From Clostridia bacterium (GTDB lineage Bacteria > Bacillota > Clostridia > Christensenellales > Borkfalkiaceae): a stretch of 59,126 nucleotides of DNA. The notes beneath the pieces were generated by a model. It worked only from the letters and a program-made list of their open reading frames with translations, was not told the origin of the DNA and did not search any database. The stretch spans positions 1 to 59,126 of the forward strand of contig JAAUYR010000064.1 in assembly GCA_014805025.1 (NCBI GenBank), written 5' to 3'. Below, one piece after another: positions 34,291 through 57,753 of this stretch (position 1 is its first letter; each line of letters begins with the position of its first letter). The position numbers and the translations under genes were made by a program.

Positions 34291-35265
34291 TTATTTGTTG
34301 ACGTAATTTATTTTTTCGCGCCTGTCGAGGGGGTATCTGGCGAGCTTGTCGCCGTCGAGGTTTTCGCCGTGCATATCAACGGCGGTGATGGCGTGGTTTT
34401 CGTAGGTTGTGTAATAGTACAGCCCCTTATCCGCGTTACAGCAGGACGTGTAAATGGTAATTTCGTATTCGCTTTCGCCGACGATGCAACAGCCGCGCTG
34501 TTGCTCTACTGAGCCGAGGATATGGAAAAACTGGTTTACGCTTTGCTCTTCGGAGTCCCCCGATACCGAGTTTAATTTTGTAAAGGCAACCCTTACGAAC
34601 CGCGACTGCGAGGACAAGTCGCCCGGCAGTCCCAAAGCGCCCATGCCGCGGCTGTAAGCCTTTAATTGAAGCTTGTCCGAAAACATGTTCTCGGGCTGGC
34701 GCGGCGATAAGCCCATATAGTTGTTCAGGTTAAACATCTGCTCGTCGAAGGGAGGGTTGTTCGTAAGCACGCCCGCCGGATTGTCGTAAATTTTCAGGCC
34801 TTCCTTGACGGCTTCGACGGTTATTGCTTTGGTTTTATCGGCGATTATCCAGTGCAGCTGGGCTACGGGCAATTTGTCGCTGTACGGCACGTTGGTTAAA
34901 TTTATATTTTCAAGCAGCTTTAAAGCCTCGTCAACGGTCGCGCACTTGCCGAGAATATACGGAATAAACTCGAACTGCGCCACGTTGGTTTTGTCGGGTT
35001 TAACGTCGTTATAGAAGGCGTTGCCGACGAAGTTAAGCCCGGCCATACAAAGCCCCTTTTCGTTTACCGCGTCGTAGTACAGCGGAATATCCTGCACGAA
35101 CGCCATGCCTATCATTGCGTAGTGGTTCGTCAATTTTTCGGCATTGCGCGTAATTATCGGGTAATTGCGCGGAGTTACCGTAACTTCTTCAAAATAGGAA
35201 AACTCGTAGTCGAGCGTGCGCCCGAAGTAAAAATCTTTCGTTTTATAGGTTGTCGCAGTACACAT
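34291..35265 (-). CDS. Bile salt hydrolase / choloylglycine hydrolase family protein
   Basis: An N-terminal nucleophile hydrolase that typically removes glycine or taurine from conjugated bile acids. The 324-residue protein starts MCTATTYKTKDFYFGRTLDYE: C2 is the nucleophile after Met removal, R16 and D19 match active-site residues, N82 lies in the LNFVGNAFY segment, N170 is in GVLTNNPP and R222 in SSQSRFVRVAF. Penicillin V acylases share this family, but the overall sequence fits the gut BSH group. There is no signal peptide, so it is cytoplasmic. It is divergent from the LacI regulator gene, and the regulator's operator overlaps the BSH -35 element. Confidence 0.88.
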   Translation of the reverse strand: MCTATTYKTKDFYFGRTLDYEFSYFEEVTVTPRNYPIITRNAEKLTNHYAMIGMAFVQDIPLYYDAVNEKGLCMAGLNFVGNAFYNDVKPDKTNVAQFEFIPYILGKCATVDEALKLLENINLTNVPYSDKLPVAQLHWIIADKTKAITVEAVKEGLKIYDNPAGVLTNNPPFDEQMFNLNNYMGLSPRQPENMFSDKLQLKAYSRGMGALGLPGDLSSQSRFVRVAFTKLNSVSGDSEEQSVNQFFHILGSVEQQRGCCIVGESEYEITIYTSCCNADKGLYYYTTYENHAITAVDMHGENLDGDKLARYPLDRREKINYVNK

Positions 35266-35291
35266 ATTATGACCTCACAGTTATTATTTGA

Positions 35292-35320
35292 ATTATAAAC
35301 AAAAAGAATGTAAGTGTCAA
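35292..35320 (-). promoter_or_regulatory. Perfect promoter for the bile salt hydrolase gene
   Basis: On the minus strand TTGACA (35315-35320) and TATAAT (35292-35297) are 17 bp apart. The -35 element overlaps the operator by two bases. Confidence 0.85.
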
Positions 35321-35344
35321 TTTCAGAAACCGATTTCTGAAATT
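35319..35344. promoter_or_regulatory. LacI-type operator between bile salt hydrolase and the LacI regulator
   Basis: A 26-bp palindrome with one mismatched pair, around a central CCGA (cagAAACCGATTTctg core). It sits between the -35 elements of two divergent promoters, two bases before the regulator's own -35. The same core recurs at 38019-38042 and 38202-38215. Confidence 0.85.
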
Positions 35345-35346
35345 AC

Positions 35347-35375
35347 TTGACAAAAAGGCTGTTATTTGTTATCAT
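35347..35375 (+). promoter_or_regulatory. Promoter for the LacI regulator (predicted leaderless)
   Basis: TTGACA at 35347-35352, a 17-bp spacer and TATCAT at 35370-35375. The expected transcript start is within a base or two of the ATG at 35383. Confidence 0.75.
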
Positions 35376-35382
35376 AATATTG

Positions 35383-36378
35383 ATGATAACGATATACGAC
35401 ATTTCCGAAAAAAGCGGGTTTGCTCCGGGCACGGTTTCGAAGGCGTTGAACAATTATTACGGAGTAAATGCGGAAACCCGAAGAAAAATACTTGAAATTG
35501 CAAGGAAAATGGGTTACACGCCCAACGCGAATGCGCGCGCGCTTAAAGCCAAGCACTCGCATAACCTGGGCGTTCTTTTTTATTTGCGCGACAGTCTGGA
35601 TTTGTGCCAGCATTTCCTGATAGAGATACTTAACGAGTTCAAGAGGATAGCGGAGGACCGCGGTTACGATATAACGCTTATTTCAAAGGGCAAGGACCTC
35701 GGCGCGCAGGCGTTCGTAAAGCACTGTCATATACGACAGCTTGACGGCGTGCTTATATTCGGAGATTACGGTTCGGACCTCGTTCACGAGCTTATGTGCA
35801 GCGATATTCCCTGCGTAGGGTTCGATTATTTGGGCAACCTTATGTCCGGAGTCATGTGCGACAACTATCAAAAGACCAAGCAGCTTGTAACGCAGCTTAT
35901 CGAGATGGGGCACGAGAACATTCTGTTTTTTACCGGAGAGGATAACTTCGTTACCAAGGAGCGCAAGCGCGGCTTTGCCGACGCGTTCCGCGAGAAGGGC
36001 AAGGAGAGGCTGCCGTGCGTGCGCGCGTGCTATTCCGACCCCGACCTGTGCTACGAGCTTACCAAAAAGTATTACCCCGAGCTTAAACCTACTGCAATAC
36101 TTTATCCCGACGATTTTGCGGCGGTGGGCGGCATAAACGCTCTGCACCAAATGAAATTGTCCATACCGCAGGACGTATCGGTTGCATCTTTCGACGGCAG
36201 TATATTTTCGCAGCTGACAAGTCCGCCGCTGACCTGCGTTTGTCAGGACGTTAAAAAGATAGGCGAAGCGCTTGCCGAAAAGCTTTTAAGGATAATTGAA
36301 GAGGGCGACGACAAAAAAGAACTTATAACGGTTGAGGCCGAGGTTAAATTTACCGACAGCTGCCGTTCGATAATCTAA
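35383..36378 (+). CDS. LacI-family transcriptional regulator of the beta-glucan locus
   Basis: A 331-residue LacI/PurR-type regulator: the N-terminal HTH (TIYDISEKSGFAPGTVSKALNNYYGVNAETRRKI, residues 3-36) and hinge helix (ARALKA), then a periplasmic-binding-like ligand domain. It probably binds an oligosaccharide from beta-1,3-glucan breakdown and releases operators with the AGAAACCGATTTC core. The ATG at 35383 is chosen because it starts the HTH normally; earlier in-frame starts add a hydrophobic, promoter-overlapping stretch. No Shine-Dalgarno is present, and the promoter suggests a leaderless mRNA. A strong terminator follows. Confidence 0.88.
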   Translation: MITIYDISEKSGFAPGTVSKALNNYYGVNAETRRKILEIARKMGYTPNANARALKAKHSHNLGVLFYLRDSLDLCQHFLIEILNEFKRIAEDRGYDITLISKGKDLGAQAFVKHCHIRQLDGVLIFGDYGSDLVHELMCSDIPCVGFDYLGNLMSGVMCDNYQKTKQLVTQLIEMGHENILFFTGEDNFVTKERKRGFADAFREKGKERLPCVRACYSDPDLCYELTKKYYPELKPTAILYPDDFAAVGGINALHQMKLSIPQDVSVASFDGSIFSQLTSPPLTCVCQDVKKIGEALAEKLLRIIEEGDDKKELITVEAEVKFTDSCRSII

Positions 36379-36381
36379 ATA

Positions 36382-36420
36382 AAAGCACCGCTAAAAGCAG
36401 AACTTTTAGCGGTGCTTTCT
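36382..36420. terminator. Terminator between the LacI gene and the convergent GH16 gene
   Basis: A 16-bp perfect stem (36382-36397 with 36403-36418) with a 5-nt loop, A-rich before and T-rich after. It lies 30 bp from the GH16 stop, so it may serve both genes. Confidence 0.85.
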
Positions 36421-36449
36421 TATAAATATGGAGAAAAATGAATGAACGA

Positions 36450-38006
36450 TTAATTACCGAGGTAGGTTATAACCAAATCGTCGAAGTAGCAGGTGCCCTG
36501 CAACGTTTTGTTTATTAAGCGGTACTGAATACTCAGAGCGTCCTCGTCCGTGACGGTAAATTCAATGCTGAAATCTTTCCAATCGTTGGAAGAGCCGAGG
36601 GTGAAATCGTTTCTGCCGCTTATGTACGAGCTGGTGGAGTAGCCGAGAACGTTCAGATAGCGGAACACAGCCTCTGCGCCGTCGGTGGTGCGGAACTTGC
36701 CGGTAAGCTTATATTTAAAGCCGTAGGACGCGCCGCGCAGCCACTGTCCGAAGACGCCGCCGTTTGTGACTGCCGCGCAGGAGTTGTCTGCATTGAGGGG
36801 GTCTTTTACTATTCCGGCGCTGCTGCCCGCAACGTACGAGTTGCTTTCGGTATCGTAAATGGTCATATCTTTCCAGGGCGTGCCGAGCGAATAGTTAGTG
36901 TCGGGTTTTACGTAAGTTTCGTCAGCTCTCTCGAAATCGCCGTTGGAGCATTTGTTTATTACGGGGAGGGAGGTAAGCGTTTTGGGCTTGTATCCGTCCG
37001 CATAGTTACGGTTCTGCACGGGGCGCTGTTCCCAGCCTTCCATCTGGAAGGGTATGTAGCGCCACCAGGAAATTTCCGCGTAGTCGTAATCGAACATACG
37101 GCTGTCTGCGGAAACGCCGCCTTCGTCGTTGTTGACAAGACCGCCGCCGGCCCAGGAAGGGCACCACAGTCCGAGGTTGAGCGTTGCGTTGGTCGTAGGA
37201 ACGTTAACGTCTATCGTAAGTACTTTAACGCCGTCGATGAAATAATCAACGTAAGGAACGGCTACGTCCGTTACCCAGTCGAAGGAATAGATGTGCCAGT
37301 TTCCGTCGTTTACGAAGTAATCGACGTCGGTCGGCGTGTTGGTGTTATTGCTGGGCGAAGTCCAGGTCGTAAAAAAGACCTTGGAAAAGTCGGGTTCAAG
37401 CCCGATTTCTATATCGATTTCGTTCTGTTGCGTGCTTCCGTCGTTCAGAGTGAACCAGGAGTATACCCACATAGAGGTAAGAGCGCCTACGCGCGGACAC
37501 GCTTTCATTTTAACGTCGTAACGGCCGGGGCCGAGCGCTTCGATAGTGGAAATGCACGCGCCCGAATTCACGCCGTAGCCCTGCGACGCGGTAAATAAGT
37601 TTTTGCCGTCGCCGTATTCGGCTTTTTCTTCCTCGGTGTACAGAGGGTCGTTATCCATATTATAATAAGAGCCGTTTGCGCGCAGAAGAAGGTGCGTTTC
37701 GGGGTTGTTTTCGTCGTCTACGAGAAACAGGTTCTGCGGACGCACGCCGTTCTGGTCGGTGCTCCACTGGTCCCACACGGAGTCGGATATAACCCAACGG
37801 TCCAAATTTACGCCTTCGGTAAAGTCGTCGTACAGCATTTCGTCGTAGTTTAAGCTGTGGCGGCTCTCTACCGATTTATAATAATCTCCGCCAAAGCCGA
37901 ACATCTGGTCTGCCAGTTTATTGCCACCGCAACCTGCCGCAACCGGCAACGAAAGGGTGAGGAGTATTCCGGCAGTAATAGCGCTTGCCGCTTTTTTGAA
38001 TTTCAT
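36450..38006 (-). CDS. GH16-family beta-glucanase lipoprotein (laminarinase type)
   Basis: A surface-anchored endo-beta-glucanase, most likely cutting beta-1,3-glucan. The 518-residue protein has a lipoprotein signal with lipobox ending at C26. The GH16 catalytic domain spans about 55-335, with the catalytic motif ExDxE at residues 196-200 (E196 nucleophile, E200 acid/base). A C-terminal module of about 150 residues begins near NKCSNGDFERADE and looks like a CBM4/9-type carbohydrate-binding sandwich. Its promoter faces the transporter operon and has the shared operator at the transcript start. Activity on mixed-linkage beta-glucan, agar or carrageenan cannot be excluded by motif alone, but the GH81 partner favours laminarin-like substrates. 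Confidence 0.88.
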   Translation of the reverse strand: MKFKKAASAITAGILLTLSLPVAAGCGGNKLADQMFGFGGDYYKSVESRHSLNYDEMLYDDFTEGVNLDRWVISDSVWDQWSTDQNGVRPQNLFLVDDENNPETHLLLRANGSYYNMDNDPLYTEEEKAEYGDGKNLFTASQGYGVNSGACISTIEALGPGRYDVKMKACPRVGALTSMWVYSWFTLNDGSTQQNEIDIEIGLEPDFSKVFFTTWTSPSNNTNTPTDVDYFVNDGNWHIYSFDWVTDVAVPYVDYFIDGVKVLTIDVNVPTTNATLNLGLWCPSWAGGGLVNNDEGGVSADSRMFDYDYAEISWWRYIPFQMEGWEQRPVQNRNYADGYKPKTLTSLPVINKCSNGDFERADETYVKPDTNYSLGTPWKDMTIYDTESNSYVAGSSAGIVKDPLNADNSCAAVTNGGVFGQWLRGASYGFKYKLTGKFRTTDGAEAVFRYLNVLGYSTSSYISGRNDFTLGSSNDWKDFSIEFTVTDEDALSIQYRLINKTLQGTCYFDDLVITYLGN

Positions 38007-38018
38007 ATTTTCCTCCTG

Positions 38019-38042
38019 ATTTTAGAAATCGGTTTCTAAAAT
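38019..38042. promoter_or_regulatory. LacI-type operator at the GH16 transcript start
   Basis: A 24-bp palindrome, ttagAAATCGGTTTctaa core, with one G-T pair. It lies between the predicted transcript start and the AGGAGG ribosome site of the GH16 gene, so binding would block transcription. Confidence 0.85.
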
Positions 38043-38049
38043 TAAGTTT

Positions 38050-38078
38050 ATTGTATCATTTAAAAAATGGTTTGTCAA
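38050..38078 (-). promoter_or_regulatory. Promoter for the GH16 gene
   Basis: On the minus strand TTGACA (38073-38078) and TACAAT (38050-38055) are 17 bp apart. Confidence 0.8.
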
Positions 38079-38131
38079 CGCTTTGTAGAAAAATTATGTT
38101 AGAACTTAAAAAAAATAATTAAAATTTTGTG

Positions 38132-38160
38132 TTGACAACACATAATCTGTGTGATATAAT
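38132..38160 (+). promoter_or_regulatory. Perfect promoter of the glucan utilisation operon
   Basis: TTGACA at 38132-38137, a 17-bp spacer and TATAAT at 38155-38160, about 140 bp before the solute-binding protein start. This implies a long 5' leader. Confidence 0.9.
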
Positions 38161-38201
38161 CATTTCGTAATAGGGGTATTGCCTTTTGCAGTACAAGTTT
38201 A

Positions 38202-38215
38202 AGAAACCGATTTCC
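38202..38215. promoter_or_regulatory. Third LacI-type operator, in the leader of the operon
   Basis: AGAAACCGATTTCC matches the core of the operator at 35326-35339 in 13 of 14 bases. It lies about 40 bp downstream of the predicted transcript start, suited to a roadblock. Confidence 0.75.
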
Positions 38216-38231
38216 ATAAAAATTTCGGTTG

Positions 38232-38303: not shown

Positions 38304-40058
38304 ATGATGAAGAAAAAATTGACGGCAATTGCTCTTGCAGCGACTATGTGCGTTGCCGGCGTCAGCCTTGCGGGCTGCGGCGCCAAAAAGGGCGAGGGCG
38401 AGCTGTGGATTACCTATTATAACGGTGGTTACGGCTCGGACTGGGTTGAACAGCTTGGAGCTAAGTTCTCGGAAAAAACGGGCATACCCGTAAGAACGGA
38501 CGCCGATACGCAGCTTATCGACTCGGTTGCCAACATGATGGAAAACGGCACTAACTACGACCTTATATTCTGTCACGACGTGGCTTGGGAGGACTTTGTT
38601 GCTCCCGGATATATTTACAACCTTGACGCGCTCTATGCAACTCAGGTAGAATACAAGGGTGAAACGGTTACGTACGCAGACCGCATCTGGGACGAGGACG
38701 TTCTTGCAAGCGCAAGCTACAACGGCCACTATTACAAAGTGCCCTGGACGATAGGTACTGCCGGTATCGCATACAGCCTTACCATTATGGACCGTATCGA
38801 CGCATGGCTTGCAACCGCGAAAGGTCAGGAGTACCTCAATAAGCGCGAAGGACATCTGACGACCAAAGAGGCAAACACGGCTCGCAGATGGAAGCGCCAG
38901 GCTCCCAAGGATTATTACGAGCTCATTCAGTACTGCTACGATATCGAGAACGCTAAGCTCGAAGTAAACGAGGACGCACCCAAGGACGAAAAGGTCAAGG
39001 CGTTCTGCTGGTCGGGCGGCGCGGAAGAATGGCAGTGGGACTACGTCGTATTCGACTGGTGGGGACAGCTTGCCGGACCCGAAACGATGAACACTTTCAA
39101 GAACTTCGCAAACGTTAAAGAAGATTTCACTCTGGATATCGCAAATCAGAAAAACCCCAACAGCGACGTTTACAACCCCTCGCTCATGGCTAAGGACAAC
39201 AACAATATAGGTTGGGGCGAGTTCCAGCAGGCTTACAAGCTTTGGTATAATATGGTAGTAGCGGACGGCACTACCGAGCTTAAAAAATGGTCAACCAACG
39301 ATACCGCCGGCCTCAGCAAGTTCGACAACGAGAACGCGTTCGCTTCTTACAGAGCGGCAATGACCCCCGCGGCGTGCTGGGTAGAGTACGAAACCTCGTA
39401 CTATCTCAACAAAACGCATAACGAAATTTCGCTTATGCCTACGCCGACAATCTCCAACGTTAAGTTCGACGCGAGCGGCAAGTTGCTGTTCCCCTGCGAC
39501 GCGGCTTACGACAGCGCAACCGCTGCTCTCGACGCAATTCACGCAGACCCGAACGCAACCGAAAAGGTAATAGAAGTAAACGGCACCAAATACAACCGCG
39601 TATCCTTCACCAGCTCGTTCGGCGACAGCGCAATGATACCCGCAAAATCCACGGGCAGAGACCTTGCAGTGCAGTTCCTTCTGTTCATGCAGGAAGAGGA
39701 AAACGCAAAGCTCTTCACCAAGCTTGCGCACGGCACTATTCTTCCCTATAAATACGATTACGCTTCTTCGTTCATAGACGAAAACGGCATTGACCAGGCA
39801 AGCGCTTGGCAGAAATCGATATTCGAAATCGACCAGAACAGCACCAAGTTCAACAACTATACGCAGCATCCCATGATGCGCAGCACTCAGCTTAAAGGCT
39901 CGGCGCGTATGACTTCGGTTTGGCCCAACAACAAATACTACTATCTTAATGCGTGGAAAGAACCCACCAACACCGCTTATCAGCCTACCACGTTGATTCC
40001 CAACATTTATCAGAACGACGTACTTAAACTTTGGGAAACTTACAAGAAACTTCTTTAA
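38304..40058 (+). CDS. Extracellular sugar-binding lipoprotein of an ABC importer
   Basis: A 584-residue family 1-type extracellular solute-binding protein that should deliver glucan oligosaccharides to the adjacent permeases. The signal peptide ends in the lipobox SLAGC (C25). The mature part starts GELWITYYNGGYGSDWVEQLGAKFSEKTGI, the usual fold of sugar-binding proteins, and at over 550 residues is larger than MalE-type proteins, as seen with long oligosaccharide ligands. The start is the ATG at 38304 after GGAGG at 38294-38298; the ATG at 38307 fits almost equally well. It is the first gene of the operon. Confidence 0.9.
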   Translation: MMKKKLTAIALAATMCVAGVSLAGCGAKKGEGELWITYYNGGYGSDWVEQLGAKFSEKTGIPVRTDADTQLIDSVANMMENGTNYDLIFCHDVAWEDFVAPGYIYNLDALYATQVEYKGETVTYADRIWDEDVLASASYNGHYYKVPWTIGTAGIAYSLTIMDRIDAWLATAKGQEYLNKREGHLTTKEANTARRWKRQAPKDYYELIQYCYDIENAKLEVNEDAPKDEKVKAFCWSGGAEEWQWDYVVFDWWGQLAGPETMNTFKNFANVKEDFTLDIANQKNPNSDVYNPSLMAKDNNNIGWGEFQQAYKLWYNMVVADGTTELKKWSTNDTAGLSKFDNENAFASYRAAMTPAACWVEYETSYYLNKTHNEISLMPTPTISNVKFDASGKLLFPCDAAYDSATAALDAIHADPNATEKVIEVNGTKYNRVSFTSSFGDSAMIPAKSTGRDLAVQFLLFMQEEENAKLFTKLAHGTILPYKYDYASSFIDENGIDQASAWQKSIFEIDQNSTKFNNYTQHPMMRSTQLKGSARMTSVWPNNKYYYLNAWKEPTNTAYQPTTLIPNIYQNDVLKLWETYKKLL

Positions 40059-43391: not shown

Positions 43392-46370
43392 ATGAGTAAA
43401 GATTACTACTTCGAAAACGGAAAATTTATAATAAAAAATTTCGGCGAAAAGCCTCCGTTCACAAACTTCCTTCCCGGTATCGCAGGGCTGAAAGGGTGCC
43501 CTATATGGGCGTTTTACTGCAACCGCGGTCAGGGAATTTCGGGTTTCGGCGTCAGCGGCAAGGAACTTCCCATTATGGAGTTTTCGCCTGCCGAAATCGC
43601 CTATGCAAACGCGCCCAGACAGGGCTTCCGCACATTTTTGAGAATAGACGGTAAGCCTTACGAGCCGTTTGCCGTCGGCGGAAAATGCGCGACAGTAATG
43701 GAAGTTAAAAGAAGTGGTTTTAAAATTTACGCAAACGCTTCGCATTACGAAATCAGCGCGGAATACTTCGGCGTACCCAACCGCGAGTTCGCCGCGCTTG
43801 GCAGAATAGTTACATATACTAACAAAACGAACCGCACGCAGACGGTGGAAATTCTTGACGGACTTGCTCAGATTTTACCTTACGGACTTTCCAACTCGGC
43901 GTATAAGGAAACGGGCAACCTCTTCAAAAGCTGGATGTCCGCGGAGGGAACGGAAAAGGGTTACTCCTTTGTAAAAATGCGCTCCTCCACGGCAGACTGC
44001 GCCGAGGTCAGCGAAGTATCCGGCGGCAACTTCTTTCTTCCCGTAGGCGGCTTTAACATAATCGTCGACCCCAAAACGGTGTTCGGCGAGGACAGAACGA
44101 AAACCGCGGCTCACGTTTACAACCGCAAAGGAATAACCCAGGCGGCGCTTGAAAGCCAGTGCAAGGAAAACGAGTTCTTCTGCTCGTTTGCACACGCAAA
44201 GTACGACATATCCGCAGGGCAATCGGTTGTTATATGCGAACTTATAGGTTACGCGGCCGAACCTTCTGTTGCGGCAAAGCTTAAACAGAGCCTTACCGAA
44301 AGCGACGTTATGGCAATGCGTGCCGAGGCGGAAGCCGAAGCCGAAAGCATTGCAAGCAGCGTTGAAACGCATACCGCATTTCCCTTATTCGACGAATACG
44401 TAAAGCAAAGTTATTTCGATAACGTTCTTCGCGGCGGAAAACCCGTAATAGTAGGGGGGCAACCGTACTACGTATTCTCGCGCAAGCACGGCGACCCCGA
44501 AAGAGATTACAACGCTTTTCATATAGAGCCCAAGCCGTATTCCTGCGGCAACGGCAACTTCCGCGACGTAGCGCAGAACCGCAGAAACGATACTTTGATT
44601 ACTCCCGAGTGCGGTGACTTCAACGTTAAATATTTCTTTTCGCTGTTGCAGGCGGACGGGTATAATCCCCTTGCGGTGCTCGGCGTAAGATTTACCTGCG
44701 AGAACGTACCCGAGCGGTTTAAAAAATACGAAAACTTCCTTAAAGGCAAGTTTACCGTAGGCGACGCGGTCATAACCCTGGGGCTTGACGAAAGCGGACT
44801 TAACGAGCTTATAAAGGAATGCACGCCCGTTTGCGAGGCGACGTTCGGCGAGGGATACTGGTCAGACCATTTCGTATATTTAATCGACTTAGTTACGGCA
44901 TATCTGGGGGTCTATCCCGATAAAAAGGACGAAATTTTATATAATTCGCCGCTCAGATGGTTTAAATCGGGCGCAAGGCTTCTGCCTTACGACAGGCGCG
45001 CGGTAAAGACCAAGGCCGGCAAGGTGCGCAGGCTTTACAGTCTTGAAGAAAACGGCGAGGACGGCTGGTTGCAGTCGGGCGAGGGCGATTATAAAACCTC
45101 GCTTGCGGCAAAGCTTTTGTTCCTTGCGCTTATCAAGACGGCTACGCTTGACCCTCTCGGCTGCGGCATTGATATGGAAGCCGGAAAACCCGGCTGGTGC
45201 GACGCAACAAACGGTTTGCCGGCACTGTTCGGCAGTAACGTTGCCGACGGAATGGAGCTTCTGCGGCTTATAAAAATTTTGCAAGAGCTTCTCGGCAGCA
45301 AGCCCGTTGAATGGGCGGAAGAGCAGGACGGCTTATTCAGGTCGGTTCTGGCGCTGCTTAAAAAGAACACCGCACCCGAAAAGTTCTACAACGAAGTTAT
45401 TACGATAAAAGAAAAATATCTTGAAAGCGTTTACGGCGGCTTTAACGGCGGCACGGCGCAGGTTAATTGCGAAGATATAAAATTGTTCCTCAACCTGGCG
45501 CAAAAGAAGCTTGAAGGCGGTCTTGCCCGTGCAAAGCGGCTTGGCGGCGGTTGGCTTCCCACGTATCTCGCTTTCGAGGCCGAGGAGTATACCGAAACTG
45601 GCAACGGCTTTATAAAACCCGTCAAGTTCAGCGCTCGCGCGCTTCCTCACTTTGCCGAGGGCGTTGCAAAGGGTCTTGCCGTAGGCGACACTCAGGTTTA
45701 TTCCCGTGCAAAGCGCTCCGAGCTTTACGATAAAAAGCTCAAAGTATTCAAGACCAGCGAACCGCTCGATAGCGAAACGCAGGAGATAGGCCGTATACGG
45801 TCGTTCCCGGCAGGCTGGTTGGAGCGCGAATCCTGCTTTCTGCATATGAGTTATAAAGTTCTTCTTGCCCTGCTCGAAGCCGGACTGTACGAGGAATTTT
45901 ATAAAGAGATTAAAACAGGGCTTATCCCGTTTATGCCCGCGGAGCGTTACGGCAGAAGCACTTTGGAGAACAGCTCGTTCTTAGTCACCTCGAACCACGG
46001 CGACAAATCCAAGTTGGGCAAGGGCTATCAGGCAAGGCTTACGGGCGCAAACGCCGAGCTGCTTTCAATGTGGCGCGCAATGATGGGCATAGAGCAGCCG
46101 TTCGTAACGGCAGGCGGCGAGCTTGAATTCAGGCTTTCGCCCAAGCTCCATAAAGACTTTTTCGACGACGGCAGAGTATCGTTCACGCTGTTCGGAAAAA
46201 CCAAAATAACTTATATAAATAATAGTGGCAAAAGCACCTGGGACGGCGCAAAAATAACGCTGTACCGTTTAAAGGGCGAAAAGACGGTTGAAACGCAAAC
46301 CGTAACCGGCGCGCTTGCGGAAGATATTCGCGGCGGCAAATACCGGGAAATAGAGGTTGAAATAAAATGA
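43392..46370 (+). CDS. GH94-like glycoside phosphorylase, candidate beta-1,3-glucan phosphorylase
   Basis: A 992-residue cytoplasmic enzyme (no signal peptide) with the layout of GH94-clan phosphorylases: an N-terminal beta-sandwich (about 1-290), linker helices and an (alpha/alpha)6 catalytic barrel (about 400-800). The segment GKPGWCDATNGLPALFGS places the likely catalytic acid at D604. The size is larger than cellobiose phosphorylase (about 800) and closer to GH149/GH161 beta-1,3-glucan phosphorylases, which fits the locus; laminaribiose or cellobiose phosphorylase are alternatives. It would release glucose 1-phosphate from imported oligosaccharides. The gene overlaps the GH1 start by four bases. 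Confidence 0.75.
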   Translation: MSKDYYFENGKFIIKNFGEKPPFTNFLPGIAGLKGCPIWAFYCNRGQGISGFGVSGKELPIMEFSPAEIAYANAPRQGFRTFLRIDGKPYEPFAVGGKCATVMEVKRSGFKIYANASHYEISAEYFGVPNREFAALGRIVTYTNKTNRTQTVEILDGLAQILPYGLSNSAYKETGNLFKSWMSAEGTEKGYSFVKMRSSTADCAEVSEVSGGNFFLPVGGFNIIVDPKTVFGEDRTKTAAHVYNRKGITQAALESQCKENEFFCSFAHAKYDISAGQSVVICELIGYAAEPSVAAKLKQSLTESDVMAMRAEAEAEAESIASSVETHTAFPLFDEYVKQSYFDNVLRGGKPVIVGGQPYYVFSRKHGDPERDYNAFHIEPKPYSCGNGNFRDVAQNRRNDTLITPECGDFNVKYFFSLLQADGYNPLAVLGVRFTCENVPERFKKYENFLKGKFTVGDAVITLGLDESGLNELIKECTPVCEATFGEGYWSDHFVYLIDLVTAYLGVYPDKKDEILYNSPLRWFKSGARLLPYDRRAVKTKAGKVRRLYSLEENGEDGWLQSGEGDYKTSLAAKLLFLALIKTATLDPLGCGIDMEAGKPGWCDATNGLPALFGSNVADGMELLRLIKILQELLGSKPVEWAEEQDGLFRSVLALLKKNTAPEKFYNEVITIKEKYLESVYGGFNGGTAQVNCEDIKLFLNLAQKKLEGGLARAKRLGGGWLPTYLAFEAEEYTETGNGFIKPVKFSARALPHFAEGVAKGLAVGDTQVYSRAKRSELYDKKLKVFKTSEPLDSETQEIGRIRSFPAGWLERESCFLHMSYKVLLALLEAGLYEEFYKEIKTGLIPFMPAERYGRSTLENSSFLVTSNHGDKSKLGKGYQARLTGANAELLSMWRAMMGIEQPFVTAGGELEFRLSPKLHKDFFDDGRVSFTLFGKTKITYINNSGKSTWDGAKITLYRLKGEKTVETQTVTGALAEDIRGGKYREIEVEIK

Positions 46371-47701
46371 AATTCCCCAAAAACTTTATATTCGGCGCGG
46401 CGACAGCGGCCTATCAGATAGAGGGCGGACGTCGCGAGGGCGGAAAGGCCGACAGCATATGGGACAGATTTTGCGATATCCCCGGCAATGTCGACAGAAA
46501 CGAAACGGGCGAGGTTGCGTGCGACCATTACCATAAATTCCGCGAAGACGTCGCAAAAATGAAGGAGATGCACCTTGACAGCTACCGTTTTTCGGTTGCC
46601 TGGACGCGCATTATCCCCGACGGCGACGGCAAAGTCAATAAAGAGGGCGTAGCCTTTTACGACGCGCTTATCGACGAGCTTTTAAAAGCCGGCATCGAAC
46701 CGATGCTCACGATGTACCACTGGGATTTACCCCAGGCCTTGCAGGAAAAGGGCGGCTGGCTGAACCCCGAAAGCGTAAACTGGTATACTCATTATGCCGA
46801 GGTGCTGTTCGACGCGTTCGGCGGCAAGGTAAAAAAATTCATCACCTTTAACGAGCCGTTCGTATTCACCGATTTCGGTTACGTGACGGGCACGTTCCCC
46901 CCGGGTATCCGCGGCGATTACCGCAGCAAGATAACGGCCGGACACAACGTACTTAAAAGCCACGGCTCGGCGGTACGGCTTTTCCGTAAAAAGAAGCTCA
47001 AAGGCGAAATAGGAATAACGCTCGATTACGCTTATAATTGTCCGGCAACTAAGCAAACTAATGACGTAAAGGCGGCGGCGCTTGCAAACGAGTTCTGGGC
47101 CGGCTGGTACTTCGAGCCGGTGGTTTTCGGCCACTATCCCGAACACGCTTTAAAATGGTTTAAAGAGCGCAACCTGCTCCCCGAAATCACCGAAGAGGAT
47201 ATGAAGCTTATTTCTGAACCTATCGACTTTTTGGGCATAAATCATTACTTTACGAACTACGTTGCGTACGACGAAAGCAACACTCGCGAGCACACCAAGG
47301 CCGTATATCCCAACGTTCACCATACCGATATGGACTGGCCGATTACGGAAGACGGCTTCTACGAAATGCTTAAATACTTTCAGTCGGTATTGAAAGTTCC
47401 CCTGTATATAACGGAAAACGGTATATCCTTAAACGATATAGTAACCCTTGACGGCACCGTTGAGGACTACGACCGTATAGATTATATGAAGAGGTATCTC
47501 GGCAAATTATCGCAGGCAATACAGGAAGGTCTTGACTGCCGCGGTTATTATTATTGGAGTTTAATGGACAATATGGAATGGGCGGCAGGTTATAAACCCC
47601 GTTTCGGACTTATATACGTCGATTACCCCACACAAAAACGCATAATAAAGCGTAGCGGCGAATTTTACCGCACGCTTATAGACCAAAAAAACGGTTTATA
47701 A
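46367..47701 (+). CDS. GH1 beta-glucosidase
   Basis: A 444-residue family 1 beta-glucosidase. Acid/base E163 lies in TFNEPF and nucleophile E350 in YITENGIS; the N-terminal ATAAYQIEGG segment is typical. No signal peptide, so it acts inside on laminaribiose or short beta-glucosides. There is no 6-phospho-specific context (no PTS genes), so unphosphorylated substrates are expected. The ATG overlaps the phosphorylase stop (ATGA), coupling the two steps of oligosaccharide breakdown. Confidence 0.95.
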   Translation: MKFPKNFIFGAATAAYQIEGGRREGGKADSIWDRFCDIPGNVDRNETGEVACDHYHKFREDVAKMKEMHLDSYRFSVAWTRIIPDGDGKVNKEGVAFYDALIDELLKAGIEPMLTMYHWDLPQALQEKGGWLNPESVNWYTHYAEVLFDAFGGKVKKFITFNEPFVFTDFGYVTGTFPPGIRGDYRSKITAGHNVLKSHGSAVRLFRKKKLKGEIGITLDYAYNCPATKQTNDVKAAALANEFWAGWYFEPVVFGHYPEHALKWFKERNLLPEITEEDMKLISEPIDFLGINHYFTNYVAYDESNTREHTKAVYPNVHHTDMDWPITEDGFYEMLKYFQSVLKVPLYITENGISLNDIVTLDGTVEDYDRIDYMKRYLGKLSQAIQEGLDCRGYYYWSLMDNMEWAAGYKPRFGLIYVDYPTQKRIIKRSGEFYRTLIDQKNGL

Positions 47702-50828: not shown

Positions 50829-53800
50829 ATGAACAAAAGGACTAAAATAATACTTATTTCGGTAGCCGCGGTCGTAGCGGCCGCGGCTATCGTAATAGCT
50901 TGCGTACTATTAATAAAGCCGAAAGCTCCGCCTGCTCCGCCGCCCCTTAAAGTAACCATTTCCGGCGCGGACGATACGGATATTTTGCAGGGCAGATTTT
51001 TCGACTGTTATTCCGGCGTTAAGGCTGTATCCGGAGACGGAACGGACTTATCCGCGCGGTTGAACGTTACCGGCACGGTCAACACCGCAAAGGTAGGGGA
51101 ATACACGCTTACTTATTCCGTTGCCGACGACTACGGCAACTCAGCCGAAGTGCTAAGGACGGTTACCGTCAAGGCAAACCCGGCTATCGGCAAGGAAAAG
51201 CCCGTACCCGTTTACACTGTTGCAAGCGGTTCGGACTACAATATCGCAAAGGGCTGCGACGCTTCGGCAAAAGCAACCTCAAACGGCAGCGCCTCGCTGG
51301 CTTTCGACGGCGACTTATCAACGCGCTGGGAAAGCGAATGGGTGGACGACGCATCTCTTACGGTAAACTTAGGCGCTCCGCTTAAAATCAACTCTGTCAA
51401 CATTTACTGGGAAGCGGCGTATGCTGCAAGCTTTACTCTGCTTGTATCTAACGACGGCATTACCTGGACGGAAATAGAGTCTGTTAAAGACCAAAACCTT
51501 CCGACCGCGCCGCGTTTAAACAGCTTCGTGTTCGAGGACGTAACGGCACAGCTTGTACGCGTTCAGGGCGAAAAGCGAGGCTCGGTTTTCGGATATTCCA
51601 TTTACGAGCTCGAAGTTTTAGGGCCTACGGGCACGGTAATTCCCAAAGAGGAATACCCCGACTTATACGACGCTCAAAAGGAAAGCTCGCCCGACTGGGC
51701 GCAGGTTACCGAGGAGTGGTTGGAGTTCGACTTGGGCAGCGAAAAGCAAGTAAACAGACTGCGCATTGCCTTTTTGGATAACTTAACCCCTGCCTCGTAC
51801 AAGGTTCTGTACGCAGGCGCGGACAAAAATTACACCGAACTCAAAACTTATAACCTGCCTTACAGCGCGGACACGTTCAGGTTCAACAACGAGGCAGACG
51901 TAACATTAAACGCGCGGTACTTTAAAATAGAGCTTTATGCGCGCAGGTTTACCGCTGCATCGTACCGCATAACCGAGGTTAGCTTTGTGTTCTTTGAAGC
52001 CGGCGCCGGCGAAAACGGCACTGACAGGCAAACAAAGTGGACGGCAAGCGTTGCCGCCTCATCCGAAAAAGCCGAGCACGGCACTTCTCTTGCGGTGGAC
52101 GGGGACGACGAAACCTATTGGGAAAACAACAATAACAACGGCTACCAGACGGTAGATTTACAAGAAGTCAAGGCCGTGGGCCGCGTTGACCTTTACTGGC
52201 GCGGCGACGACGGCGGCAAGGGCAAGTATTACGATTTGCAGATAAGCACCGACGGGCGCAACTGGACAACGGTATTCCGCCAGACCCACGGCGCGACGCC
52301 CAAGCAGAGCGTATTCGTGTACGAGGACGCAAGGTATATCCGCGTAATCGACTATCAAAGCCCTGATACTTACCGCTATATGTTGGAGGGTATAGTAGTA
52401 CATTCTCAGTACCCCGAAAGTAGCGGCGAGGGCAAAGTAAACTATAACGTATCGCTCGGCTTCCCCGAGTACAGCGTTATAACAAACGGAAACGGCACTT
52501 ATATTACGGGAGGAACCGACTTCCCCTCGTCAAGACTTATAGCGTATCTCGACGAATCTTTACGCGGCAAGCCCGTACCCAGCAACGACTGGTGGCAGGG
52601 ACTGCTCATTGCCGACAAGGGTTACAATATGTATATGAACCCTTTGACGGCGACCTTTAAAACCGACGGGCTTTGGCTTACCAACCCGGGCGAGGGGTAC
52701 TTCGACGGATTCGTGCCGGGCAACGGCTCGCAGACGGTAGACGTTGACGCGCACGATTTGGCTATCGGATATGCCGGAATGAGCAAGGACGCGGAAGTCC
52801 GCGTGACGGGTTACTCCGATTACGGCGTAAGCGCGGTAATGACGGACGATACCGAGGTCGATAAACTTACGGTATTCCTTTCGGAGGGCACGCTTTACGC
52901 ATACTGCCTGTTCGCCGAGCCTGAAAAGGCAATGCTCACCGCTAAGAACTTTTTAGGGTTTTACGATTTATCGGGCAACGCGATATTAAACGAAGTCGGC
53001 TCGGAATACACGGGCGACGGAATTGTCGTTAAAGTGCTTACGCACAGCAGCTACGAGAACGGCGTGCGCAAGTACCGCAAGGACGGCAAAGAGTACGAAA
53101 ACGCGCCCTTATACGAAGAGCGTTACTACGTTGTGAACGTGCCCGAAAGCACGAAGTTTGTACGCGGCGAGGCCGATGTTTCGGTTAAGATGACCGAGGG
53201 CAACTATATGTCGGTTGGCGCGGTCGGTCAGAAAAACACCGTTAAGGAAAACCAGACGAGCAACGCGGCTTTCCCCCTGAAAGAGGTTGAGGCGCTGCAC
53301 GAGCACGGCTATGCGTTCGTTATCAGCACGGGCTGCGTTTACAGCTTCGACGGCACTAACAACACGGTTACAACCGAGTTCCGCCTGCGCACTATGCTTA
53401 TGCGCGAGGGGTATTCGGCGGAAGCGTACTCGGCGTATATGCCGCATCAATTAGCAAAATCAGACTATAAAGACGGTTATATTTATAAGAGTATCCGCGG
53501 CGACTGCCGTTCGCATACGGGCAATATGTTCACGACCAAGGATACTTTCTACGGAATTGTTCCCACCTTCTGCGAGCCGACCGACAGCGGTTTCTCCGCG
53601 TTGGTGCTCTACGACCAGCTTTTAATGCTGTACAACAACAACGGCGGCGACAAAGCTCCCGAGGACAGCAATCTTATTTCGGGCGACCCGTACTGGCAGG
53701 GCAAAAACCTGCATCCTATGGCTATGGCGGCGCTTGCCTCCGACCAGATAGGCGCAACCGATTTAAGGGATAAATTCCTTGATAAAATCGAATACATTTT

Positions 53801-56285
53801 AACTGACTGGTTCACTTACGACCCCGTTAAGGATAAATCAACGGGCGCGTACTTCTACTACGACGGCGAGTGGGGCACGCTGTACTACAAAAACAGCGAG
53901 TTCGGCGCGGGCGTAAACCTTGCAGACCATTACTTCACTTACGGCTATTATACTCTGGCTGCCGGCGTGCTCAGCTCGTACCGCCCCGAGTTCGCCGAAG
54001 AGTGGGGGGACATGATAGAGCTTCTCATAAGGGACTATATGAACCCTTCGAGGGAAGACGAGCTGTTCCCGTATATGCGCAACTACGACCCGTTTGCAGG
54101 TCACGGCTGGGCAGGCGGTTACGCCGATAACAACGGCGGCAACAACCAGGAATCCGCAGGCGAGGCGTTGAACAGCTGGGTCGGCGCGTATCTGTACGCA
54201 ACGGCAACGGGCAACGAAACGGTGCGTCAGGCCGCGATTTACGGCTACACCACCGAGCTTGCCGCAATCAAACATTACTGGTTCAATTATTACAACGACT
54301 TCCCCGAAAGTTATCAGTACGGAGTTGCCGGCCAGGTTTACGGCGGAAGCAACTTCTACGGCACGTTCTTCAACGGTCAGCCGCTGTATATGTACGGCAT
54401 ACACCTTATCCCCGGCGAAGAGTATTTAACGAGTTACGCGTTAAACGCCGCCGAGCGCGAAATGCTCGAAGGTTTAATCGACAACATGCGCGAGGAGCAG
54501 GGCTACTGGGACGTTGACGACCCCAAGGATAACGAAATCAGCGCGTGGCAGCACATATTTATCCCTATCGTAGCAATTTACGATGCGGACGAGGCTATCG
54601 AGTGGTACAACGAAGTCCTTAAACAGCAGGGCAACGTCGGCAACACTTCCGAGCAGTTCAACGTTTACTGGCTTATCCACGGCATGAAAACCATGGGCGT
54701 GCGCACCACCGATATCTGGGCGGAGAACGGCGCAACCGCAACCGTGTACGAAAAGAACGGCAATTATAAGGCGCTGTGCTGGAATGCTACGGGCAAAGAA
54801 CAGAAATTCGTGTTCAGGAACAAGGACGGAATTACGGGCTATGCGATAGTTCCGGCAGGCGGACTCGTTTCCTGCGACCCGACCAAAGAGACGACGAGCT
54901 TCGAAAAATACGAGGACGTAAACGAATTCGCATACAAGGGCGACGGAAATTATCTGTTATCCTTCGGCAGCGAGCAGAACTATTACAATATTAAAATTAC
55001 CTCTAACGGCAACGCAAAGCTTTATATCGACGGCGAGGAAATTGCGCTTACGCCCAACGGCGGCGTATTTGCCAGCGGCCCCGTATCGCTTGCATTCAAG
55101 CACGTTGTAACAATTTCGGGCGGCAGCTCGGTAGAGTTTGAAAAGCTCACGCTCAATAAATCCAACGTTCCGGCGCTCAATATTACGGCATCCTCAGAAA
55201 AAGATGCTGCGGCAAACGCGTTTGACGGAGATTTGGAAACGCGCTGGGAATCCGAGCACGGCAACGATAACGAGTGGCTGCAAATAGAGCTTTCCGAGGC
55301 TATCGCAATTTACCAGATTAAAATTCACTGGGAGGCGGCTTCGGCAAAGGAATATAAAGTGTTGTTCTCGCTTGACGGCAACACCTGGAAGGAAGTATTC
55401 AGCGGCGGCTTCTCCGGCACGAAAAGAACGGACGTCATAAATCCTACGGAAACGCGGGCAAAATACATCCGTATTCAGGGCGTTTCGCGAATTTCCGATT
55501 TCGGTTATTCCATTTACGATATCGAGCTGTACAACTTCGACGGACCGATTGTTTACGAAGACGTTGCAAACTTCGATTTTACAAAGCCTTCGGTTGCGAC
55601 GAATGCTCAGGTTACTAACGGTTACGTGGCTCTGTCGGCAAACGGCAGCGTAACGTACCGCGTAGACTTCGGCGAATCGGGCTTCTACAACCTGCAAATT
55701 ACCGGCAACGGTGCAAACGTTACGGCAACTTGCGGCGGCGTGGAAATACCTCTTGAAAAAACGGGCGACGGTTGGGCAAGTATGCCTTTCAGCGCGTCGG
55801 GCAAGCAGGCGGTAATAATAAGCGGCAGCAACGTTACCTTAACGGGCGTCAGGTTGGAAAAACGGAACCTGAACTTATTGCAGGTCGGCAAGACGGCGAC
55901 GGCTTCCTCACAGGAAAACAACACCACGGCCGCGCAATACGCAGTGGACGGGAATAAGGGCACGCGTTGGGGCTCGGCGCTCGACGGGGACAACGCCGGC
56001 AGCGACGACGAATGGCTGCAAATAGAACTTGCTCAGCTTTCTACGATTTATCAGATGAAGATTTATTGGCAGGATGCTTCGGCAAGGGAATACAAAGTGC
56101 TGTTCTCGACGGACGGAGCGGACTGGACGGAAGTTTATTACGGCAGTTCATCGCAAAACGGCGCAAGGACGGATATTATAAATCCTACTCAAACGCAGGC
56201 AAAGTATATCCGCATAGAAGGTATTTCAAGAATGACGCCTTACGGCTATTCTATATTCGAAGTAGAGCTATATAATTTCAATTAA
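50829..56285 (+). CDS. Multidomain GH81 endo-beta-1,3-glucanase with five discoidin-like modules
   Basis: An 1818-residue exported enzyme. A transmembrane/signal-anchor (about 7-31) is followed by a proline linker, an Ig-like domain (about 42-116), three F5/8 type C (CBM32-like) modules (about 137-270, 277-395, 400-535), a GH81 catalytic region (about 540-1350), a small beta-sandwich, a fourth F5/8C (about 1447-1572), another beta-sandwich and a fifth F5/8C (about 1680-1817). GH81 marks are SNDWWQGLL near residue 578 and DPFAGHGWAGG followed by NNQESAGEALNSW, with acidic residues D1087, E1108 and E1112. GH81 enzymes cut beta-1,3-glucan chains. The second and third N-terminal modules are divergent. 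Confidence 0.9.
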   Translation: MNKRTKIILISVAAVVAAAAIVIACVLLIKPKAPPAPPPLKVTISGADDTDILQGRFFDCYSGVKAVSGDGTDLSARLNVTGTVNTAKVGEYTLTYSVADDYGNSAEVLRTVTVKANPAIGKEKPVPVYTVASGSDYNIAKGCDASAKATSNGSASLAFDGDLSTRWESEWVDDASLTVNLGAPLKINSVNIYWEAAYAASFTLLVSNDGITWTEIESVKDQNLPTAPRLNSFVFEDVTAQLVRVQGEKRGSVFGYSIYELEVLGPTGTVIPKEEYPDLYDAQKESSPDWAQVTEEWLEFDLGSEKQVNRLRIAFLDNLTPASYKVLYAGADKNYTELKTYNLPYSADTFRFNNEADVTLNARYFKIELYARRFTAASYRITEVSFVFFEAGAGENGTDRQTKWTASVAASSEKAEHGTSLAVDGDDETYWENNNNNGYQTVDLQEVKAVGRVDLYWRGDDGGKGKYYDLQISTDGRNWTTVFRQTHGATPKQSVFVYEDARYIRVIDYQSPDTYRYMLEGIVVHSQYPESSGEGKVNYNVSLGFPEYSVITNGNGTYITGGTDFPSSRLIAYLDESLRGKPVPSNDWWQGLLIADKGYNMYMNPLTATFKTDGLWLTNPGEGYFDGFVPGNGSQTVDVDAHDLAIGYAGMSKDAEVRVTGYSDYGVSAVMTDDTEVDKLTVFLSEGTLYAYCLFAEPEKAMLTAKNFLGFYDLSGNAILNEVGSEYTGDGIVVKVLTHSSYENGVRKYRKDGKEYENAPLYEERYYVVNVPESTKFVRGEADVSVKMTEGNYMSVGAVGQKNTVKENQTSNAAFPLKEVEALHEHGYAFVISTGCVYSFDGTNNTVTTEFRLRTMLMREGYSAEAYSAYMPHQLAKSDYKDGYIYKSIRGDCRSHTGNMFTTKDTFYGIVPTFCEPTDSGFSALVLYDQLLMLYNNNGGDKAPEDSNLISGDPYWQGKNLHPMAMAALASDQIGATDLRDKFLDKIEYILTDWFTYDPVKDKSTGAYFYYDGEWGTLYYKNSEFGAGVNLADHYFTYGYYTLAAGVLSSYRPEFAEEWGDMIELLIRDYMNPSREDELFPYMRNYDPFAGHGWAGGYADNNGGNNQESAGEALNSWVGAYLYATATGNETVRQAAIYGYTTELAAIKHYWFNYYNDFPESYQYGVAGQVYGGSNFYGTFFNGQPLYMYGIHLIPGEEYLTSYALNAAEREMLEGLIDNMREEQGYWDVDDPKDNEISAWQHIFIPIVAIYDADEAIEWYNEVLKQQGNVGNTSEQFNVYWLIHGMKTMGVRTTDIWAENGATATVYEKNGNYKALCWNATGKEQKFVFRNKDGITGYAIVPAGGLVSCDPTKETTSFEKYEDVNEFAYKGDGNYLLSFGSEQNYYNIKITSNGNAKLYIDGEEIALTPNGGVFASGPVSLAFKHVVTISGGSSVEFEKLTLNKSNVPALNITASSEKDAAANAFDGDLETRWESEHGNDNEWLQIELSEAIAIYQIKIHWEAASAKEYKVLFSLDGNTWKEVFSGGFSGTKRTDVINPTETRAKYIRIQGVSRISDFGYSIYDIELYNFDGPIVYEDVANFDFTKPSVATNAQVTNGYVALSANGSVTYRVDFGESGFYNLQITGNGANVTATCGGVEIPLEKTGDGWASMPFSASGKQAVIISGSNVTLTGVRLEKRNLNLLQVGKTATASSQENNTTAAQYAVDGNKGTRWGSALDGDNAGSDDEWLQIELAQLSTIYQMKIYWQDASAREYKVLFSTDGADWTEVYYGSSSQNGARTDIINPTQTQAKYIRIEGISRMTPYGYSIFEVELYNFN

Positions 56286-56298
56286 GGAGAAAAAAATT

Positions 56299-57753
56299 AT
56301 GGCAGGTTTATCACTTAAACACATTTATAAGGTTTATCCGGGCAGAACGACGGCAAAAAAGCACCCCGTTAAAACTATTATAAACAAAATAAAAAAGAAA
56401 GAGGAGCAGAAGCCTGCCGTTGAAAAACGCTCGGGCAATTTCGTTGCGGTAAAAGATTTCAATATGGAAATCGAGGACGGCGAGTTCATCGTATTCGTAG
56501 GCCCTTCGGGCTGCGGCAAGTCCACTACCATAAGAATGATTGCCGGCCTTGAAGATATTTCCAGCGGTGAGCTTTTAATTGACGGCGTGCTCGTGAACGA
56601 CGTTGCGCCCAAGGACAGGGATATCGCAATGGTGTTCCAGAGCTACGCGCTGTATCCGCATATGACCGCGCAGCAGAATATCGAGTTCGCGTTAAAGCTG
56701 CGCAAGCTTCCCGTCGAAAAGAAGGATAAAGAGGGCAACCCCATCCTCGCTATCGACAAAAAGAAGATTAAGGAATTAAAGGAAAAAATCAAAGCCGTTG
56801 AATACGATTTGGAAGACGCGGAAGACGGCGAGGATGCAGAGTACAAGCAAATTCTCACCGCTCGCAAGGCCGCGCTCGAAAACGATTTGAAGTATTACAG
56901 CGAAACCCCCGTACAGGCGTACTCCTACAAGCATATGAGCAAGGCGGATATCGCCGCAAAAGTACAGTGGGCGGCTAAAATTCTGGGTATCGAGGAGCTG
57001 CTCGATAACAAGCCCGCGGAAATGTCCGGCGGACAGCGCCAGCGTATCGCGCTCGGCCGTGCAATGGTTCGCGGCCCCAAGGTATTCCTTCTGGACGAAC
57101 CGTTATCCAACCTCGACGCAAAGCTCAGGGCAAGCATGCGCCTTGAAATAGTTAAGCTGCACAAAGAGCTTAAAACCACGTTCATTTACGTTACTCACGA
57201 CCAGGTCGAGGCAATGACCATGGGTACGAGAATAGTCGTTATGAAGCTCGGCGTAGTTCAGCAGATTGACACGCCTACAAACCTTTACGACTTCCCCGAT
57301 AACAAGTTCGTTGCAGGCTTTATCGGCACACCGCAGATGAACTTCTTTGACGTAAGCATTAAAAAGTACGGCACAAAGCTTAAAATTACGTTTGCAAACG
57401 GCCAGACCGTCGGCTACGATTTAGCTAAGCTGCGCGGCATTAAGGAAGAGTATCTCGACGGCGAGTCTCACGAGGTAACGCTCGGCGTGCGCGGCGAGCA
57501 CATCAAGGTTGAAAGCACCAAGGTTGCCGGCTGTATCGACTCCACGCTTGTCGTTAAAGAGGTTCTGGGCAACACCACCCAGCTGTTCATTAAGCTTACC
57601 GAGGACGGCCCCGATTACATAATCTGCGTATCCGAGCGTACGGGCTACGAATCCGGCGATAAGATTTACATTACTTTAAAGGAACAGAATATACATTTGT
57701 TTGACAAAGAAACCGAACTGTCTATAATGAATAGGGAGTACGGTAATAACTAA
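56299..57753 (+). CDS. Sugar ABC transporter ATPase (MsmK/UgpC type) with insertions
   Basis: The ATPase that most likely powers the two permeases 15 kb upstream. The 484-residue protein has Walker A GPSGCGKST at 68-76, Q-loop Q114, signature MSGGQ at 242-246, Walker B VFLLDEP at 262-268, and the C-terminal OB-type regulatory domain (about 350-470). Typical MsmK proteins have about 370 residues. The difference is a lysine-rich insert at about 15-48 and a larger charged, coiled-coil-like insert at about 137-215 in the helical subdomain before the signature. It starts 13 bp after GH81 and is part of the operon. Confidence 0.92.
   Translation: MAGLSLKHIYKVYPGRTTAKKHPVKTIINKIKKKEEQKPAVEKRSGNFVAVKDFNMEIEDGEFIVFVGPSGCGKSTTIRMIAGLEDISSGELLIDGVLVNDVAPKDRDIAMVFQSYALYPHMTAQQNIEFALKLRKLPVEKKDKEGNPILAIDKKKIKELKEKIKAVEYDLEDAEDGEDAEYKQILTARKAALENDLKYYSETPVQAYSYKHMSKADIAAKVQWAAKILGIEELLDNKPAEMSGGQRQRIALGRAMVRGPKVFLLDEPLSNLDAKLRASMRLEIVKLHKELKTTFIYVTHDQVEAMTMGTRIVVMKLGVVQQIDTPTNLYDFPDNKFVAGFIGTPQMNFFDVSIKKYGTKLKITFANGQTVGYDLAKLRGIKEEYLDGESHEVTLGVRGEHIKVESTKVAGCIDSTLVVKEVLGNTTQLFIKLTEDGPDYIICVSERTGYESGDKIYITLKEQNIHLFDKETELSIMNREYGNN

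Follow-up and report, generated by a model that had tools for sequence, protein, structure and literature searches.

A small LacI regulon predicted for beta-1,3-glucan use in a Clostridia bacterium, with a bile salt hydrolase gene as a probable non-conserved neighbour of the regulator's own operator

According to PMC4052901, regulators of the LacI family are local in their reach in nearly 90% of cases and autoregulated in 72%, and they act mostly at even palindromes with a CG centre, a form given there for 1173 transcription factors. For Thermotoga, the available part of PMC3750489 describes glucan genes under the LacI-type regulator CelR and a laminarinase operon under BglR of the ROK family, and for Bifidobacterium longum that of PMC8012564 describes genetic linkage between a LacI gene and a gene for a serpin, the production of which is changed by sugars. 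Here we describe a locus in a window of 59,126 nucleotides (nt), the whole stretch of DNA that was analysed (contig JAAUYR010000064.1 of assembly GCA_014805025.1, from a Clostridia bacterium of the Borkfalkiaceae). In this window the gene for a LacI-family regulator (lacI) stands back-to-back with a gene for a bile salt hydrolase (BSH), next to genes for beta-glucan use, and one operator motif recurs among them. Judged from the sequence, the locus probably represents a small, local and autoregulated LacI regulon for beta-1,3-glucan in which BSH is a non-conserved neighbour.

The predicted regulon resembles the LacI regulons covered by the available part of PMC4052901 in its even CG-centred palindrome, its site at the regulator's own gene and its local control of sugar use, but differs from them in that BSH sits at the autoregulatory site; laminari-, beta-glucan and bile do not occur as terms in the main text of that paper as available. 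It is like the CelR and BglR systems in placing a regulator over enzymes that degrade glucans and glucosides, over a phosphorylase and over ABC transporters, whereas the laminarinase regulator of Thermotoga belongs to the ROK family and no bile gene was found for the CelR and BglR regulons in the part of PMC3750489 at hand. The serpin gene of B. longum is, like BSH here, a host-interaction gene linked to a LacI gene, but serpin is not BSH, and PMC8012564 describes the mechanism in B. longum as still to be worked out. The window probably holds a well-defined LacI regulon of a known kind; a bile link is possible in this genome, though it was not seen to be conserved.

Promoters were identified as consensus matches and start sites were estimated 7 nt after the -10 element. 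The features that carry the argument are listed below.

34291..35265, minus strand: bile salt hydrolase (choloylglycine hydrolase), 324 residues, PF02275 at 350.6 bits.
35292..35320, minus strand: BSH promoter TTGACA-17-TATAAT, 12/12 consensus, estimated start about 35285.
35320..35343, unstranded: operator ATTTCAGAAACCGATTTCTGAAAT, placed between the promoters of BSH and lacI, a 24-bp palindrome with 11/12 pairs and a CG centre.
35347..35375, plus strand: lacI promoter TTGACA-17-TATCAT, 11/12 consensus, with the start estimated to lie 1 nt ahead of the ATG.
35383..36378, plus strand: LacI-family regulator, 331 residues, PF00356 at 41 bits (cutoff 27) and Peripla_BP_3 (PF13377) at 95 bits.
38019..38042, unstranded: operator just 3' of the predicted GH16 start site, a 24-bp palindrome with 11/12 pairs, centre at about +13.
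38078-38050, minus strand: GH16 promoter, 11/12 consensus.
38132-38160, plus strand: transport promoter, 12/12 consensus.
38203..38214, unstranded: operator core within the transport operon leader, centred at about +42.
L005:8048-10072 (contig C30 of the same genome, G000): DUF4886 protein with a lipoprotein-like N-terminus, operator upstream at L005:8015-8026.

Exact copies of AGAAACCGATTTC are found in the window at 35325-35337 (+), 38025-38037 (-) and 38202-38214 (+), that is, at all three places (the lacI/BSH promoters, the GH16 start and the transport leader) where a sequence-only reading of this DNA had located a shared motif. Its description of the three as palindromes holds for the lacI/BSH and GH16 copies; the transport copy (38197-38220) pairs at 7/12 over 24 bp and is thus palindromic around its core only. 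Allowing up to two mismatches, AGAAACCGATTTC matches the window 10 times, with two copies counted on both strands, against a mean of 2.2 and a largest value of 6 in shuffled sequence. For the tighter YCGR core GAAAYCGRTTTC the window has 3 occurrences where 0.035 are expected, and the whole genome (1.32 Mb, 85% complete) has 4 where 0.79 are expected. Both expectations come from a first-order Markov model that was trained on the window; reversed as a control, the pattern of this core has 0 matches in the genome. Each of the four genomic copies lies beside a near-consensus promoter: one copy is at lacI/BSH, one at GH16, one in the transporter leader and one at a DUF4886 gene that is unlinked to the locus. 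A looser motif, GAAANCGNTTTC, has 11 sites in the genome, of which 4 are the YCGR sites; four of the remaining 7 were read and all four lie inside stop-to-stop frames of 118-722 codons. Since enrichment of this motif over its reversed control was uneven between genomes (forward/reversed 11/2 in the window genome, 14/4 in G049 and 9/4 in G051), the YCGR form alone was used.

The 24-bp palindrome at 35320-35343 has one base (35320) in common with the -35 element of BSH and ends 3 bp before that of lacI, which bears out the claim that it overlaps the former and abuts the latter. Relative to the estimated starts in the window genome, the operator centres lie at +13 for GH16, +42 for the transport operon, +12 for DUF4886, -50 for lacI and -46 for BSH. 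In three other genomes of the genus that carry an orthologue of the regulator (G007, G049 and G051), the corresponding positions are +13 for GH16 in G007, +43 for the transport operon in G049 with a variant site, GAAATCGTTTTC, at +38 in G007, +10 for DUF4886 in G007 with two sites at +14 and +34 in G049, and -50, -52 and -50 for lacI in G007, G049 and G051, respectively, these being the sites of relatives for which the geometry was measured. Centres between +10 and +43 place the operators of GH16, the transport operon and DUF4886 downstream of the start, as sites of a blocking type, while the lacI/BSH site is upstream of the -35 elements.

In a sample of 93 genomes of the genus, including that of the window, an orthologue of the regulator (called at E <= 1e-60) is present in 3/92 other congeners, with 72-85% identity. 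The operator stands 15, 15, 15 and 16 bp upstream of the lacI -35 element in the four genomes, in which the neighbours are unrelated: in the relatives the gene upstream of lacI encodes a divergently oriented SDR protein (G007), or a trypsin-like protease (G049) or a PAP2 protein (G051) in the same direction as lacI. The retention of the site upstream of lacI among differing neighbours indicates that it is primarily the regulator's own, autoregulatory site. Sites at the GH16/transport region are kept in 3/3 relatives with the regulator and the DUF4886 site in two. Altogether the four carriers hold 15 exact GAAAYCGRTTTC sites, all of them on the upstream side of a gene of the regulon: four each at lacI, GH16 and DUF4886 and three at the transporter, with two of the GH16 sites being assigned from their position at contig breaks. 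The motif AGAAAYCGRTTTCT is present in 4/4 carriers as against 3/89 non-carriers of the genus (Fisher p 1.2e-5, a value that ignores relatedness and includes the source genome of the motif among the carriers), and the three matches in non-carriers all fall within stop-to-stop frames of 583-764 codons. In an order-wide sample (396 genomes drawn from a larger group), matches to the regulator were found in 31/395 other genomes at E <= 1e-50, the best with 42% identity, and no BSH was detected at the other order-wide LacI loci that were fetched (19/34, with flanks of up to 1.5 kb).

The only exact core in the genome beyond the window, at C30:8015-8026, is located just 3' of a promoter, TTGACA-16-TATAAT, and is followed 21 bp later by the ATG of the DUF4886 gene, whose product we take to be SGNH-like. 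Homologues of this protein (E <= 1e-20) are found in 19/93 genomes of the genus, the window genome included. Close homologues are confined to carriers of the regulator, G049 (70%) and G007 (57%), and both have the operator upstream, doubled in the case of G049; the other 16 genomes have matches of 38-47% over parts of the protein. The site accompanies DUF4886 at 3/3 loci from carriers, and the core is absent from all fetched DUF4886 homologue loci of genomes that lack the regulator (0/19). No DUF4886 homologue was found at the same threshold in the carrier G051.

In the mechanism that we favour, the regulator would bind the AGAAAYCGRTTTCT-type sites and, when bound at +10 to +43, would block transcription of GH16, the transporter operon and DUF4886, until a sugar derived from glucan releases it. 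Bound at about -50 of its own, apparently leaderless, gene with conserved spacing, it would also control its own expression. As BSH is back-to-back with lacI, an arrangement seen in this genome only, the autoregulatory site would there also abut the BSH -35. Since the palindrome touches the -35 element of the BSH promoter, itself a 12/12 consensus match, interference by bound LacI is conceivable there; most likely the protein would hinder RNA polymerase at BSH and cause a modest repression when glucan is absent. Any such effect is most likely a side effect of position, not a conserved link. At BSH the site precedes the -35, in contrast to its position downstream of the promoter at the glucan genes, so that the sign of an effect on BSH is not readable from the sequence. 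Repression, selected or not, is the outcome towards which we lean somewhat, with no effect a lesser prospect and activation an improbable one; this division overlaps with the likelihoods given below to the rival explanations, which need not sum to one.

The explanation that fares best among these rivals is that BSH is wholly unaffected, the operator serving lacI alone while RNA polymerase still reaches the BSH promoter. We regard this as possible: the 14-bp core (35325-35338) stops 4 bp short of the BSH -35, and it is the spacing between operator and lacI that is conserved. Against it stands the reach of the palindrome into the BSH -35, and dimers of LacI-family proteins usually span more DNA than an operator core.

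A second explanation takes BSH as a selected member of the regulon, repressed until beta-glucan is present, so that bile salt deconjugation is coupled to glucan feeding. The base in common between palindrome and BSH -35, the perfect consensus of the BSH promoter and the fact that this site is one of two operator palindromes in the window with 11/12 pairs all speak for such a role, which we nevertheless consider doubtful; equally hard to credit is the related proposal that the glucan repressor captured BSH in this lineage, dietary or fungal glucan thereby setting deconjugation through one shared operator. BSH was searched for in 101 genomes, 61 of them from the genus's 93, which gave 54 matches in 50 genomes. 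Fifty of the 54 places were examined (the window's own, 48 with upstream DNA and one without), the others being distant, weak or fragmentary (G082, G001, G051 and the second of G036). The operator is absent from the upstream regions of 48/48 other BSH genes, and no CG-centred palindrome with 5/6 pairs was found within 200 nt in these regions. A candidate upstream of BSH in G009, GAAACCGATAAC, was set aside as a chance match, having 2 mismatches and no palindromic form in a genome without a match to the regulator at E <= 1e-60. No relative of the regulator was detected by tblastn (E 1e-4) in the flanks of 49 other BSH genes, which span 1.5-2.5 kb or less at contig ends, and five BSH genes of 81-85% identity that were read with more flanking sequence have neither the operator nor a gene of the glucan locus nearby. 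In G038 BSH is beside mnmA, broadly as it is in the window, though oriented the other way.

Adjacency of the pair is likewise limited to 1/4 genomes that carry the regulator: BSH adjoins lacI in 0/3 of the others and no relative with the pair was found. G007 has both genes, BSH being on a separate contig with no operator site in the 6 kb read around it. The search in relatives that the sequence-only reading had proposed did not reveal the BSH link, the operator being kept without BSH alongside in 3/3 relatives with the regulator. The position of the site upstream of the BSH promoter, unlike that at the glucan genes, also argues against a selected role. From the proposed tie between glucan and bile salt hydrolysis there remain, as supported parts, one motif, a local LacI regulator, a beta-glucan regulon and a BSH, real by its sequence, with a strong promoter that abuts the operator; an evolved link marked by the operator is not supported.

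It is unlikely that the regulator instead activates from its upstream position (-46 to -52), switching on BSH and lacI when bound; the near-constant distance at which the site precedes the lacI -35 (4/4 genomes) would suit this, but both promoters already match 11-12 of 12 consensus positions and have little need of activation. A reading of the sites as cre-like elements, served by a global catabolite regulator of the CcpA type, is highly improbable and was rejected, for although the operator core is like the cre consensus save for its outer bases, the regulator scores 110.7 bits against a CcpA model cutoff of 442.35, only two LacI-type DNA-binding domains were found in the genome, three of the four genomic sites are in the glucan locus, and the motif tracks the orthologue of the window regulator.

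Several points weigh against a small glucan regulon with BSH as an incidental neighbour. The genus sample contains just four carriers of the regulator, and in two of them a contig ends near lacI. Enrichment of the looser motif GAAANCGNTTTC is lacking in G007 (5/5, forward against reversed control), and the transport site of that genome deviates from the YCGR core. Another LacI protein is encoded in the genome (contig C74), and more are possible in the missing part of the draft. The operator centre at BSH (-46) is unlike the geometry of the glucan genes, and the effect assumed at BSH and its sign are guesses. Finally, with a draft of 85% completeness, misassembly of the window genome at the BSH/lacI junction is possible; the genes on either side of this junction occur in other genomes of the genus.

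The identity of BSH as a bile salt hydrolase appears real on the evidence of its sequence. It is the sole gene of the CBAH family found in the genome (PF02275, one match), scores 481.1 against the curated bile salt hydrolase model NF038245 (cutoff 350, passed) and 221.2 against a penicillin V amidase model (cutoff 600, failed), and aligns over its full length with PDB 4wl3 ('Bile salt hydrolase', E 3.4e-135). Residues C2, R16, D19, N78, N169/N170 and R222 were located and are identical in the 4wl3 alignment. A catalytic Cys2 with Arg, Asp, Asn, Asn and Arg as partners is what we take to be the bile salt hydrolase residue set. The protein is thus like the solved bile salt hydrolases (PDB 4wl3) throughout, and only its promoter neighbourhood is unusual here. 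Downstream of BSH is a tRNA-Arg(CCG) gene at 34043-34118, the last 20 bases of which are repeated exactly 137 bp on (34236-34255), and a perfect 24-bp palindrome follows each copy of the tRNA end. The repeat and palindrome are perhaps left over from a duplication of the tRNA end together with its terminator.

The remaining genes of the locus are as follows.

36450..38006, minus strand: GH16 beta-glucanase, PF00722 at 37 bits (cutoff 22), with an N-terminal signal that by eye is of the lipoprotein type.
38304..40058, plus strand: ABC transporter substrate-binding lipoprotein, with no Pfam match, assigned by weak MalE similarity (26.8 bits) and position.
40069-41061 and 41072-42025, plus strand: two ABC transporter permeases, the first by PF00528, the second by position and by gene order in G007 and G049.
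43392..46370, plus strand: GH161-type phosphorylase, matching PDB 9qqk ('gh161 phosphorylase') at E 9.2e-194 over residues 9-991 of 992.
46367..47701, plus strand: GH1 beta-glucosidase, TIGR03356 at 544.8 (cutoff 478.5).
50829..56285, plus strand: GH81 protein with F5/8 type C domains, PF17652 at 115.1 bits and PF00754 at 290.6 bits.
56299..57753, plus strand: ABC ATPase, with the motifs GPSGCGKST and MSGGQRQR in its translation.

We assume from its family that the GH81 protein is an endo-beta-1,3-glucanase, and we take the GH161 and GH81 families together to point to beta-1,3-glucan, on which the phosphorylase presumably acts. Assignment of the phosphorylase to GH149 was rejected in favour of GH161, its score being 75.6 against a model cutoff of 1150. 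Among PDB entries GH16 has weak similarity to beta-glucanases, several of which are named 1,3-1,4-beta-glucanases, so the exact substrate of the locus is not fixed. The substrate-binding lipoprotein has 60-62% identity to its counterparts in G007 and G049 and 61% in G051, and the ATPase is presumably of the type named MsmK.

Two LacI DNA-binding domains were found in the genome, including that of the window regulator. The second LacI protein is encoded at L066:4052-5035 (G000:C74), between apparent alpha-glucan genes that were judged by eye to be 4-alpha-glucanotransferase-like and pullulanase-like, and the shared operator was not found on that contig. In 4/4 orthologues of the window regulator, the ATG of lacI lies 0-1 nt from the start estimated from the best-scoring promoter (35347-35385 in the window; L051, L052 and L053 in the relatives), and the lacI message is predicted to be leaderless.

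In the open-licence PMC literature, a leaderless LacI-family repressor in Firmicutes gave no match, and a search for GH161 together with LacI returned titles on other subjects only, among those seen. Control of BSH by LacI or by glucan appears in no title or abstract start among the matches listed there, which is weak evidence of absence, and it was not found in the available parts of PMC8012564 or PMC5598433.

The analysis delineates a compact predicted regulon for beta-1,3-glucan, marked by a clear operator, together with an unlinked member, DUF4886, whose site is present only in genomes that carry the regulator, and it describes a conserved regulator gene that is predicted to be leaderless. 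It also offers a case of how a neighbouring gene can come to adjoin a regulator's own operator. Should BSH truly respond to glucan, the chemistry of bile salts could be adjusted through diet by way of a bacterial sugar repressor.

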